From contig JAJFJT010000027.1 of assembly GCA_021773795.1 (NCBI GenBank), positions 1-64,000 of the forward strand: a stretch of 64,000 nucleotides of DNA. The letters run 5' to 3'. The DNA is from Gammaproteobacteria bacterium. GTDB lineage: Bacteria > Pseudomonadota > Gammaproteobacteria > HK1. The notes beneath the pieces are model-generated. The model searched no databases and was not told where the DNA came from. It worked only from the letters and a program-made list of their open reading frames with translations. The translations under genes and the position numbers were made by a program. Shown here piece after piece: positions 7,952 through 55,671 of the stretch (the stretch's first letter is position 1; every line of letters begins with the position of its first letter).

Positions 7952-8547
7952 CAGGCGGCCCCTTGGTCTACGCCGATCACGATACGGGTATCGCTGAGGA
8001 AACTATGTGGTGGCACCACCAGATTGGTCGGCGCCGGGACACTCTTGTACACCCGCCCCGCAAGGTCGAACGTGGAGCCGTGGCAGGGGCAGAAGAAACC
8101 GCCCGGCCAGTCATCACCCAGGGCATGGGGATCGGAAGATTTGACGTATTGGGGGGAGCAGCCCAGATGGGTGCAGATTCCCACCAGCACCAATATCTCG
8201 GGCTGAATGGAGCGATGTGCGTTCTGCGCATATCCCGGTTGTTGAGCTGCCACCTCGGAATCCGGGTCGCGCAAAAGCTCGGCCTGCTTCTCCAAGGCAC
8301 TCAATGTTTCCGCACCACGACGCAAAACCCATACCGGCTTGCCGCGCCATTTGACCCGGAGCATCTGCCCCTTTTCCAGCTTGCCAAACTCCACCTCTAC
8401 CGGCGCACCGATGGCCTTGGCCCGCTCGCTCGGCTGCCAGGAAGCGACAAACGGCACGGCAACAAAAGCCGCACCCACGCCACCGACCACCGATACCGAG
8501 GAGGTGAGAAACCGGCGTCGCCGCAGATCCACTTCCTTATCACTCAT
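7951..8547 (-). CDS. petA: Rieske iron-sulfur protein of the bc1 complex
   Basis: 198-residue [2Fe-2S] subunit. The N-terminus has a Tat-type signal anchor (RRRRFLTSSVSVVGG) and a membrane segment. Cluster motifs CTHLGC and CPCHGS are intact. The open frame continues about 50 codons upstream, but the chosen ATG follows a GGGAG ribosome-binding site and begins MSDKEVD, typical of the family. First gene of the operon; the 190 bp upstream should hold its promoter, though I could not identify one confidently. Confidence 0.96.
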   Translation of the reverse strand: MSDKEVDLRRRRFLTSSVSVVGGVGAAFVAVPFVASWQPSERAKAIGAPVEVEFGKLEKGQMLRVKWRGKPVWVLRRGAETLSALEKQAELLRDPDSEVAAQQPGYAQNAHRSIQPEILVLVGICTHLGCSPQYVKSSDPHALGDDWPGGFFCPCHGSTFDLAGRVYKSVPAPTNLVVPPHSFLSDTRIVIGVDQGAA

Positions 8548-22463: not shown

Positions 22464-22604
22464 GGGTGCCTCTAGAAATTCAAGTTTCCAGGCAAGACAA
22501 GGTATGAGTAAAAAAGTTGAGCGCAGCATATGTTTGATATGTGAGCGAAACTTTCTTACGAGAAACGCCGTATTGCGACGAAAATTGGATTTTTAGAGGG
22601 GCCC
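22464..22604 (+). repeat. Interspersed palindromic element, copy 1
   Basis: 141 bp with imperfect terminal inverted repeats (GGGTGCCTCTAGAAATTC and the complement of GGATTTTTAGAGGGGCCC). Inner arms AAAAAAGTT and AAACTTT flank a central hairpin CATAT-GTTTG-ATATG. The right end supplies the last codons and TAA stop of the adjacent old-yellow-enzyme gene. Related copies are at 44661 and 55533. Confidence 0.85.
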
Positions 22605-40253: not shown

Positions 40254-41611
40254 TCCGCGGCCTTGCGAGTCCGCGGGCGTCGGCGCCGCCGGCGAGGACG
40301 CTTGCTCGGCCGATGCACGGCCTTGAGGGAAAGTGCGCGTGCCTCTTCGTCACTTTCCAGAAAATCCGTCCACCACTCGGCCAACTCTCCAACTGGCTCA
40401 CCGGCCTCGGCACGCAGCAGCAAAAAGTCGTAGCCAGCGCGAAAGCGCGGATGCTCTATGAGGCGCAGTGGCTGGCGCCCACGGCGGCGCTCAAGGCGTG
40501 GTTGCAGGCTCCAGATCTCACGGCTCACGGTACTGAAACGGCGCGGAATCGCCACCCGCTTCACCTGCTGTGCCAGCACCCCACCACTGGCATGTTCGAT
40601 AGCCTGCAACGGGGTCATGCCATCGGCCTGGTATACCTTCGCAGCACGCTGCAAAGGCCCCCAAAGCAAAGCTGCGAACAAAAACCCTGGGGTCACGTGT
40701 TTGTCGCCAAGAATCCGGCTATCCGTATTGAGAAAGGCACGTGACAGCAACAACTTACGATCGCCCCCCTCATCTTCCAGGCTCTCTGCCACCTCTGGAA
40801 ACAATTGCTCGAAGATGCCGTATTTATCCATCAGGCGGAAAACCGAGGCTGCGTGACCACTGAGGAACAGCTTGAGCACCTCTTCATAGAGCCGGGCCGC
40901 GGGCACTTCCGTCAGCAGATAGGCGAGTTCCTGGATAGGAGCCGCTGTCTTTGCCTCGATCTGGAAACCAAGCTTGGCGGAAAAACGCACCGCGCGCAGC
41001 ATGCGCACAGGGTCTTCCCGATAACGCTGTTCGGGATCACCGATGAGGCGCAGCAACCCCTTTTTGAGGTCCGCCATGCCGCCAGTGCAATCCACCACCG
41101 AGAAATCACGAATATCGTAATACAGGCTGTTTACGGTGAAGTCACGGCGCCATGCATCCTCCTCAAAGCTGCCGTAGACATTATCCCGCAGTACCCGTCC
41201 CTCATTGCTAACGGCAGCGCCCTCAGGGGTCGCCCCATGACCGGCACGAAAGGTAGCCACCTCAATAATCTCGCGGCCATAGCGCACGTGCGCAAGGCGG
41301 AAACGCCGACCGATCAGACGACAGTTGGAAAACAGTTTACGGATTTGTTCCGGGGTCGCATCGGTAGCGACATCGAAATCCTTGGGTTCGTGGCCAAGCA
41401 GTAAATCGCGTACTCCGCCGCCCACCAGATAGCCCCGATATCCGCCCCGTTTGAGACGATAGAGCACCTTCAGGGCACTCTCGCTGATATTGGCCCGCGA
41501 AACGTTGTGGGCCGAACGAGGAATAACCACGGGCTCCGGAAGGGTCTCAGACTGTTGTTTTCCCGAAGGAAATACTGAGGAAACAGCGCGTTTAATTAAA
41601 CGTGAAATCAT
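40250..41611 (-). CDS. pcnB: Poly(A) polymerase I
   Basis: Adds 3' poly(A) tails that promote RNA decay. 453 residues with the nucleotidyltransferase motif YLVGGGVRDLLLG, the metal-binding DFDVATDATPEQIRK and RRDFTVNSLYYDI, and a basic C-terminal tail (KRPRRRRRRPRTRK) for RNA binding. The open frame extends through the opposite-strand tRNA-Glu to 41812, but that part is antisense tRNA; MISRLIKRAV at 41611 is the realistic start. Confidence 0.95.
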   Translation of the reverse strand: MISRLIKRAVSSVFPSGKQQSETLPEPVVIPRSAHNVSRANISESALKVLYRLKRGGYRGYLVGGGVRDLLLGHEPKDFDVATDATPEQIRKLFSNCRLIGRRFRLAHVRYGREIIEVATFRAGHGATPEGAAVSNEGRVLRDNVYGSFEEDAWRRDFTVNSLYYDIRDFSVVDCTGGMADLKKGLLRLIGDPEQRYREDPVRMLRAVRFSAKLGFQIEAKTAAPIQELAYLLTEVPAARLYEEVLKLFLSGHAASVFRLMDKYGIFEQLFPEVAESLEDEGGDRKLLLSRAFLNTDSRILGDKHVTPGFLFAALLWGPLQRAAKVYQADGMTPLQAIEHASGGVLAQQVKRVAIPRRFSTVSREIWSLQPRLERRRGRQPLRLIEHPRFRAGYDFLLLRAEAGEPVGELAEWWTDFLESDEEARALSLKAVHRPSKRPRRRRRRPRTRKAAE

Positions 41612-43591: not shown

Positions 43592-43924
43592 CTAGACGCA
43601 ACCCGTGGGTTTGGGCAAACCCGCCAATCGACACCCCTGCCGCACCGGACCAAAGGGAAATAGCTGATACAGAAAACGGGTGTTGGCTTTGTCCTTGCCC
43701 AATTGCTTGCCCACCAGCTTGGTCAATAAACGCACCGCAGGCGCCATTTCGTATTCAGCGTAGTGGTCACGCAGGATGTTCAGCACCACCCAGTGCTCCT
43801 CCCCAAGCTCATTGTCCTCCACGGCCGCCATTACCTCGGCCACCCGGGGGCTCCAGTCTTCGAGACTTTCCAGATAACCCTCATCGTCAGTCTCAAGGGT
43901 CTTGCCATCTACCACTACGCTCAT
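43592..43924 (-). CDS. dsrC: DsrC sulfur-carrier protein
   Basis: 110-residue DsrC/TusE-family protein. The C-terminal arm GPVRQGCRLAGLPKPTGCV has both conserved cysteines, Cys98 and penultimate Cys109, 11 residues apart. True DsrC has both; TusE keeps only the last. This points to redox chemistry with DsrAB or sulfur trafficking rather than only tRNA thiolation. Last gene of dsrE-dsrF-dsrH-dsrC. The ATG is chosen over a GTG three codons earlier. Confidence 0.93.
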   Translation of the reverse strand: MSVVVDGKTLETDDEGYLESLEDWSPRVAEVMAAVEDNELGEEHWVVLNILRDHYAEYEMAPAVRLLTKLVGKQLGKDKANTRFLYQLFPFGPVRQGCRLAGLPKPTGCV

Positions 43925-43978: not shown

Positions 43979-44284
43979 TTACAACCAGGACTGCACAGGT
44001 TCATGGGCTACTGCCAAGTCCACGAAGCCGTCATAATCCACCAGCTGTACTCCGGTAACCAGCGCCTCCGGTCCAAAACCGCGGGCACGCAAATCTTCTA
44101 CCAGCACGTATCTCTGTTGCTCCGTTGCCTGCTCCAGGCAATCTCCCGGAGCCGTTCCCCGCAAGGCTCCGTAGATCCCGTCCTCAATCAGCAACACCGC
44201 ACTACCGGGCAAGGCATGGCGCAGACAACTGTCGAATGCGTCCTTCTCAAAGGGTGATTTATTGATGAGATGGAGGGTACTCAT
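43979..44284 (-). CDS. dsrH: DsrH, subunit of the DsrEFH sulfurtransferase
   Basis: 101-residue DsrH/TusB-family protein starting STLHLINKSPFEKDAF. Cys20 (FDSCLRHALPG) is at the position reported as conserved in DsrH of sulfur oxidisers such as Allochromatium vinosum. DsrE, DsrF and DsrH form a hexamer that passes persulfide sulfur to DsrC. It lies two bases after dsrF. Confidence 0.92.
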   Translation of the reverse strand: MSTLHLINKSPFEKDAFDSCLRHALPGSAVLLIEDGIYGALRGTAPGDCLEQATEQQRYVLVEDLRARGFGPEALVTGVQLVDYDGFVDLAVAHEPVQSWL

Positions 44285-44286
44285 GA

Positions 44287-44658
44287 TCAGAAGCTCAGCA
44301 CCAGATCCTGTTCGGCCATCAACTGCGAAAGCTCTACCCGTGGCAGCACTTTCCCCGCTAACACCAATTGACCAGGCTCCAGATTGCGCTCGACCAGAGA
44401 TTCCTGTTCCACATAAATGCCTTCCAGATCATGGAGTTCCAGTGCTCGCACCATGCGCCCGGAATTCTTCATGCCCAGTGCGCCCGGAGTTTGCTCGGCC
44501 TTGAGCTGAAACACCCCATCATCGAGAAAGGCAATGCCGACCCGCTGACCGAAGGCCGCGCCCATCGACAACATCTCCAGCGCCTCCTGAGCATAGAGGG
44601 TGCCGTAGGGTGCACGGCGCTGCACATAGAGAATGCGTTTTTTGTTTGCGGCCGCCAT
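44287..44658 (-). CDS. dsrF: DsrF, subunit of the DsrEFH sulfurtransferase
   Basis: 123-residue DsrF/TusC-family protein with KRILYVQRRAPYGTLYAQEAL and the structural loop AFLDDGVFQL. No active-site cysteine is seen, as in known DsrF. The apparent ribosome-binding site, GAGGTG five bases before the ATG, lies in the terminal repeat of the element at 44661-44801. The element therefore separates dsrE from dsrF but supplies the signal for translating dsrF. Confidence 0.92.
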   Translation of the reverse strand: MAAANKKRILYVQRRAPYGTLYAQEALEMLSMGAAFGQRVGIAFLDDGVFQLKAEQTPGALGMKNSGRMVRALELHDLEGIYVEQESLVERNLEPGQLVLAGKVLPRVELSQLMAEQDLVLSF

Positions 44659-44660
44659 CA

Positions 44661-44801
44661 GGGCACCTCTATAAACACAATATTCGCCGCAATACGGCGT
44701 TTCTCACAAAAAAGTTTCGCTTGCCTATCAAACATAGGCTGCGCTCAACTTTTATACTCATGCCTTGTCTTGCATGGAAACTTGAGTTTTTAGAGGCACC
44801 C
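44661..44801 (-). repeat. Interspersed palindromic element, copy 2
   Basis: 141 bp, inverted relative to the copies at 22464 and 55533. Ends GGGCACCTCTATAAACAC and GAGTTTTTAGAGGCACCC are inverted repeats. In the family orientation the central hairpin is CCTAT-GTTTG-ATAGG, against CATAT-GTTTG-ATATG in copy 1: both members of one pair have changed. It fills the dsrE-dsrF gap, one base after the dsrE stop and two bases before the dsrF start. Confidence 0.85.
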
Positions 44802-44802
44802 A

Positions 44803-45195
44803 TTAGTCACCAAATACCAGCAGGCGATCAGCCTCAATGCCGGATTCAATCAGCTGCCCCAAACCGCCGATGCGGAAACCCTCGGCAAGATTGTCCGCAT
44901 CTTTGCCATGGCGACGACCCTCCGCCGCATCGAGAATCCCCCGACGCTGGGCGGCGGCAACGCAGATCACCAGATCCACGCCGTGCTCCTTGGCAAGCAA
45001 GGCCCAACGCTCCGGAATATGGCGCTCATCCTGCGGCACCACCCCGAGGCGGGTGCCGTTATAGACCCCATCGTGGTAAAAAAAGACCCGCGAGATCCCA
45101 TGCCCCTTGGCCAGTGCCGAACGGGCAAAATGCCAGGCGCTATCCGCCGCCTGATGCTGGTAGGGACCTTCGTTGACGAGCAGGGCAAATTTCAC
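44803..45195 (-). CDS. dsrE: DsrE, catalytic subunit of the DsrEFH sulfurtransferase
   Basis: 130-residue DsrE/TusD-family protein: KFALLVNEGPYQHQAADSAW, VFFYHDGVYNGTRLG, and the persulfide-carrying Cys78 in LVICVAAAQRRG. Position 78 is that of the active cysteine in A. vinosum DsrE. A GTG start at 45195 is required for this alignment; the open frame to 45330 overlaps the divergent glutaredoxin gene and shows no homology. First gene of dsrEFHC. Confidence 0.92.
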   Translation of the reverse strand: MKFALLVNEGPYQHQAADSAWHFARSALAKGHGISRVFFYHDGVYNGTRLGVVPQDERHIPERWALLAKEHGVDLVICVAAAQRRGILDAAEGRRHGKDADNLAEGFRIGGLGQLIESGIEADRLLVFGD

Positions 45196-55532: not shown

Positions 55533-55671
55533 GGGTGCCTCTAAAAATTCAAGTTTCCAGGCAAGACAAGGCATGTTAAAAAAGTTGAGCGCAGCATGTA
55601 GTTGATATGTAAGCCTAACGTTTTTGCGAGAAACGCCGTATTGCGACGATAGTGTATTTCTAGAGGTACCC
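55533..55671 (+). repeat. Interspersed palindromic element, copy 3
   Basis: 139 bp, same orientation as the 22464 copy. Ends GGGTGCCTCTAAAAATTC and GTGTATTTCTAGAGGTACCC are inverted repeats. The central hairpin CATGT-AGTTG-ATATG keeps pairing through one G-T wobble. The right end stops one base before the stop codon of the AEC transporter gene (55673). Confidence 0.85.

Follow-up and report, generated by a model that had tools for sequence, protein, structure and literature searches.

A MITE-like element inserted between dsrE and dsrF supplies a Shine-Dalgarno-like sequence to dsrF and is predicted to mask it

Among the described systems closest to the locus presented here are the Correia repeat enclosed elements (CREE) of Neisseria, small non-autonomous repeats that lie in operons or before genes and whose RNA undergoes RNase III processing at their terminal inverted repeats (TIRs). 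The effects described for CREE act via promoters, IHF and RNase III, whereas at this locus a Shine-Dalgarno sequence (SD) resides within the TIR. PMC2649163 records one CREE that contributes its final A to an ATG; neither 'ribosome' nor 'Shine' appears in the text of that paper. CREE carry 26-bp inverted repeats (PMC3049150) and promoters at their ends; the present element, with 11-bp TIRs, 4-bp duplications and no promoter-like site found, is not a Correia element. ERIC elements of Yersinia and the enterics are likewise intergenic miniature inverted-repeat transposable elements (MITEs), for which ribosomes have been proposed to change the RNA conformation and so expose an RNase E site (PMC2229807). 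There the ribosomes are proposed to expose a cleavage site, whereas here the masked item would be the TIR-supplied SD. Similarly, MITEAba12, QMITE1/2, RUP and BOX are non-autonomous, possess TIRs and target duplications, and alter the ends of open reading frames or transcripts; unlike the present case, the excerpts of those reports consulted deal with gene fusions, promoters or sRNAs and not with SDs in register before existing genes. A review (PMC10969869) names sRNAs as well as cleavage by RNase III and by RNase E among the effects of MITEs, and its main text does not contain the word 'ribosome'. In the literature searched, outside which most subscription papers fell, we found no report of SDs being provided in register by a MITE. 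The other arrangement to be considered is the TGATG stop/start overlap, which provides translational coupling in operons and is the ancestral dsrE-dsrF arrangement in both relatives examined below; the element, in contrast, sets 144 nt between stop and start, a distance too great for simple re-initiation.

The locus lies on the minus strand of the window, by which we mean the whole stretch of 64,000 nucleotides that was analysed. Four genes in the order TusD, TusC, TusB and TusE/DsrC match their respective protein families above the cut-off in each case, and thus belong to the TusBCD-TusE / DsrEFH-DsrC type of sulfur relay. The initial annotation had labelled them dsrEFHC, a name that agrees with the DsrE, DsrF, DsrH and DsrC family matches; yet dsrA (TIGR02064) gave 0 matches in the 99.34% complete genome, which places the genes outside the dissimilatory dsr system, and they are therefore better named tusDCB-dsrC/tusE. 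The features of the locus, together with two further copies of the element, are as follows.

44803-45195, minus strand: dsrE/tusD, with an inferred GTG start (TIGR03012, 153 bits)
44802-44805, minus strand: left target-site duplication TAAT, holding the dsrE stop TAA (a single TGAT in relatives)
44661-44801, minus strand: MITE-like element of 141 bp between dsrE/tusD and dsrF/tusC (49 copies in the genome; site empty in the same-genus genomes G001 and G002)
44791-44801, minus strand: left TIR GGGTGCCTCTA, the predicted SD-masking arm, beginning 1 nt past the dsrE stop
44661-44671, minus strand: right TIR TAGAGGTGCCC
44664-44669, minus strand: the Shine-Dalgarno-like GAGGTG, 5 nt ahead of the ATG of dsrF (not at the empty site of the two relatives)
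44657-44660, minus strand: right target-site duplication TGAT, giving the AT of the dsrF ATG
44287-44658, minus strand: dsrF/tusC (TIGR03010, 103.7 bits), its start conserved in relatives
43979-44284, minus strand: dsrH/tusB (TIGR03011)
43592-43924, minus strand: dsrC/tusE-like gene (TIGR03342) with two C-terminal cysteines
22464-22604, plus strand: second copy of the element in the window
55533-55671, plus strand: third copy in the window, with the stop codon of a neighbouring gene inside its duplication

Read on the minus strand, the end of dsrE is GGTGAC-TAA (stop at 44805-44803), followed by T (44802), the element GGGTGCCTCTA...TAGAGGTGCCC, TG (44660-44659) and the dsrF ATG (44658-44656). 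The initial annotation had a repeat filling the gap exactly, with GAGGTG five bases ahead of the dsrF ATG. The second point holds, at 44669-44664, and 141 of the 144 nt in the gap are indeed element, although the interval assigned to the repeat overshoots it by 6 bases. There is no in-frame ATG, GTG or TTG upstream of the dsrF ATG.

As a MITE we counted any short repeat (<500 bp) that has TIRs and a target-site duplication, occurs dispersed in many copies and lacks a transposase gene. The element is 136-142 bp long, ends in the 11-bp TIRs, carries no transposase gene and is dispersed over its own genome, where scored BLAST returned 40 copies and a 23-base core with at most 3 mismatches was found at 48 places (0 for the reversed-pattern control), a repetition well above chance; one diverged copy (L082) was added to the 48 tabulated ones to give the 49 that were aligned. 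Target duplications of exactly 4 bp flank 29 of the 48 copies and duplications with one mismatch another 7, as with the TAAT/TGAT of the window copy, while exact 3-bp flanks occur in 2 and exact 5-bp flanks in 0 of the 48. The target consensus is palindromic and C-TTAA-G-like around the 4-bp duplication. A MITE derived from the IS5 family would go with an IS5-like transposase that has matching ends and a YTAR duplication; the 4-bp duplication here fits that family, but the target is C-TTAA-G and no partner transposase with matching ends was found in the genome, and the element is not assigned to IS5. An autonomous relative with the same ends is typical of a MITE though not strictly required, and none turned up in this genome with the right-end pattern, among the five unmatched ends that were read or at the 3 PF01609 places; these searches yielded the diverged copy L082 and a 35-bp derivative (L078). 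Such a partner may be lost, lie outside the assembly or belong to another transposase family.

The comparison with relatives is central to the interpretation of the junction. DsrF was matched in 26 of the 55 genomes searched, and the more distant relatives have other dsrE-dsrF spacers, whose length varies between a few and about 300 nt. Both same-genus relatives are without the element and read TTTGGTGAC-TGATGGC and TTTGGCGAC-TGATGGG, in the context GGTGAC-TGATGG or GGCGAC-TGATGG, so that the dsrE stop TGA overlaps the dsrF ATG; that ATG is conserved, and GAGGTG is absent. Since the relatives read a single TGAT, the TAAT/TGAT flanks represent a duplicated TGAT with one later change that preserved the stop. 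As read from the DNA of full and empty sites, the element is inserted into the TGATG overlap of dsrE and dsrF, and the GAGGTG before dsrF comes from the element, not from ancestral sequence. It had been proposed beforehand that the terminal repeat places GAGGTG before dsrF, a view that relatives with the same GAGGTG would have contradicted; two of two lack it. The accompanying view, that dsrE and dsrF are normally almost contiguous and are parted by the insertion, is directly visible in the loss of the contiguous stop/start against these relatives. Empty sites were also seen in G001 or G002 for most of the 17 copies, among the 48, whose joined flanks were searched there; at a few sites a relative carries the same element (L027) or a different insert (L062, L004). 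The latter is another repeat, of about 165 bp, located in the relatives at the operon junctions of L062 and L004 (L116, G001:C28 about 104489-104656; L121, G002:C42 about 40817-40990), and one of its ends also has AGAGG.

The arrangement at dsrF recurs in the family. With starts taken from a simple home-made codon-based caller and a target matrix built from 29 sites, 9 of the 48 copies have a gene start exactly 2 nt beyond one of their ends, against 2.15 expected among gene-sparing, matrix-weighted sites, or 1.19 if the sites of these copies are left out of the matrix (binomial p 2.5e-4); when the caller is given no SD bonus, 8 of the 48 remain (L023 is lost; p 8e-4). An ATG stands at +2 of 15 element ends, and the 9 of these that are gene starts compare with a background of 0.179 (p 3e-4). 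Other distances are near expectation, with observed and expected numbers under the first matrix of 0 and 0.53 at 0-1 nt, 0 and 1.63 at 3-6 nt, 2 and 2.02 at 7-13 nt, 3 and 2.20 at 14-20 nt, 7 and 5.77 at 21-40 nt, and 8 and 4.78 at 41-60 nt. For eight of the nine, all but L023, a start codon occupies the matching position in one or more relatives. The nine copies are:

the window copy: dsrF (start conserved)
L002: ABC-2 permease (start conserved in G001; TTG in G002)
L012: hexapeptide transferase (start conserved in G001)
L013: protein kinase (start conserved)
L014: AIRS-domain protein (start conserved)
L023: 55-aa ORF without Pfam match, not between co-directional genes
L029: response regulator (start conserved in G001)
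L030: malonyl-CoA decarboxylase (start conserved)
L062: branched-chain amino acid permease (start conserved)

The clearest exchange of SDs is that of L029, where the relative and the joined site read GGAGTGAC-CA-ATG and the filled site reads GAGGTGCCC-CA-ATG, the native SD being displaced by about 144 nt. SDs supplied by left ends are GAGGCA, GAGGCG or GAGGTG, and some therefore amount to GAGG alone. Before 154 starts called without the SD bonus, such motifs are enriched (27 GAGG and 27 GGAG, compared with 10 and 3, respectively, in a control stretch); an exact search of the assembly for the 16S tail gave 0 matches to the 16S 3' end, and the anti-SD of this host is our assumption. The simplest reading of the enrichment of surviving copies at +2 would be that the TIR can make up for the lost SD at no other position.

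It could be argued that target preference alone suffices, with short TA-rich targets flanked by C and G falling at stop/start overlaps, the SD being coincidental and dsrF tolerated at reduced expression. The palindromic target consensus is in keeping with this, as is the stop codon found within the duplication of 9 of the 48 copies (about 0.08 expected per copy, p about 0.014), and a 4-bp target with a bias for TA-rich sites bounded by C and G is alone enough to make ATG at +2 more frequent. Nevertheless, we consider it unlikely, given that matrix-weighted gene-sparing sites predict 1.2-2.2 starts at +2 where 9 are observed and that the fraction of ATGs at +2 expected to be starts is 0.18. The window copy has both the stop inside its duplication and the start at +2. 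The enrichment could also reflect targeting rather than selection, if the transposition complex preferred translation-start DNA or operon junctions regardless of later selection. The +2 peak is very sharp, but from a distance of 3 nt onwards starts are as frequent as expected at random, so that there is no general pull to start regions; active targeting is improbable. Strand-specific selection was rejected as well, as the copies between co-directional gene pairs (14 sense, 16 antisense) show no orientation bias.

The supplied SD is at the same time predicted to be masked. The RNA fold of the window element has a z of -6.09, with 0 of 200 shuffles as stable, and is closed by the TIRs; GAGGUG falls wholly within that helix, each of its bases pairing with the left TIR, the arm that comes right behind the dsrE stop. 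As the SD is predicted to pair with the other TIR, its supply does not equal free access. In all nine start copies the probability that GAGG is unpaired is 0.00, and opening the start region is computed to cost 1.2 to 17.8 kcal/mol more than at the joined empty site, the figures for the window copy being 22.1 kcal/mol with and 14.1 kcal/mol without the element. Blocking the upstream TIR over its first 9 nt brings the predicted probability of an unpaired SD to 0.48 for the window copy and to values of 0.03-0.85 for the other start copies. In the alignment of all 49 copies, 93.0% of the cells in the TIR helix are paired, and in the whole structure 28 cells are changed on both sides against a shuffle mean of 12.4 (nine such cells each at columns 25/141 and 75/89), a count made on the window's own fold and leaning towards it. 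The RNAalifold consensus is poor (-4.79 kcal/mol), and pairing alone is no proof of an RNA function, the DNA of a MITE being palindromic anyway. The two TIRs of the window copy differ at two positions, which give U-G/G-U wobbles when one strand is transcribed and A-C mismatches when the other is.

The same helix could instead serve RNA processing, RNase III cutting it, or an RNase E site being unmasked, so that dsrE is split from the dsrF-H-C mRNA and the subunit ratio is set. The helix is long and near-continuous, and PMC10969869 and PMC2229807 describe how RNase III cuts Correia elements at their TIRs and how ERIC acts through RNase E; stable folding is, however, common to MITEs according to the former, and we regard processing as possible but doubtful. 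A promoter or terminator carried by the element might also outweigh its SD. Promoter-bearing MITE ends are known (PMC2649163, PMC6382973), but no sigma-70-like promoter was detected in 44600-44860 and the one weak terminator-like match compares with 0.4 expected. With nothing above chance, such a role was rejected and is very improbable.

The reading that we consider likely is one of insertion, substitution and masking. A non-autonomous MITE-like element transposed into the overlapping TGATG of dsrE-dsrF (tusD-tusC), the 4-bp duplication leaving a stop codon upstream and an intact ATG downstream, and the TIR substitutes a GAGG(TG) SD at normal spacing for the displaced native context, such that dsrF would remain translatable. 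In the mRNA, the TIRs would pair and hide this SD. The supply of an SD to dsrF is seen in the nucleotide sequence itself, and its use by ribosomes is presumed; the insertion breaks the stop/start coupling and probably renders initiation of dsrF weaker or conditional. Such a history would provide a testable survival route for a non-coding transposon in operons, in which the target keeps the stop and start and the element end replaces the ribosome-binding site, and a fixed translational coupling would become a start controlled by RNA structure, a change that can be followed through full and empty sites in sister species.

Upon termination at the dsrE stop, a ribosome would lie over the left arm, and the SD of dsrF might thereby be released. 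A distance of 1 nt between upstream stop and TIR is peculiar to the window copy; for the remaining copies in operons it is 4-27 nt, and such release is therefore not a family-wide geometry. Extending the idea, the MITE might be a portable, conditional translation-initiation module, with an outward SD at each end, set by the 4-bp target at its proper spacing from an ATG, and an anti-SD arm at the opposite end, and with the terminating dsrE ribosome freeing the SD of dsrF. This is speculative and rather unlikely; were it true, several host genes would have exchanged their native initiation signal for a mobile one, and re-initiation coupling would have been swapped for a switch at the stop/start overlap.

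Regarding the distribution of the family, the element was present in 2 of the 17 genomes of the family set, namely its own and G001 with 3 copies, and G002 has none. It was absent from viral contigs (exact 20-mer) and from PLSDB plasmids, and a collection of genome contigs held one carrier record, the MAG OFTM67. Two copies occupy the same site in its own genome and in G001 (L027/L076 and L058/L074), and the family was therefore active before these genomes split; despite this, G001 has 3 copies against 49 here. Moreover, at L059:1505-1644 the left flank ends in further left-TIR-like sequence (GGGTGCCTCT), suggestive of a nested insertion, and at L078:1680-1714 (G000:C21 about 8179-8213) a 35-bp derivative consisting of just the two element ends lies after hslV and upstream of hslU, the gene names being read from the ORFs.
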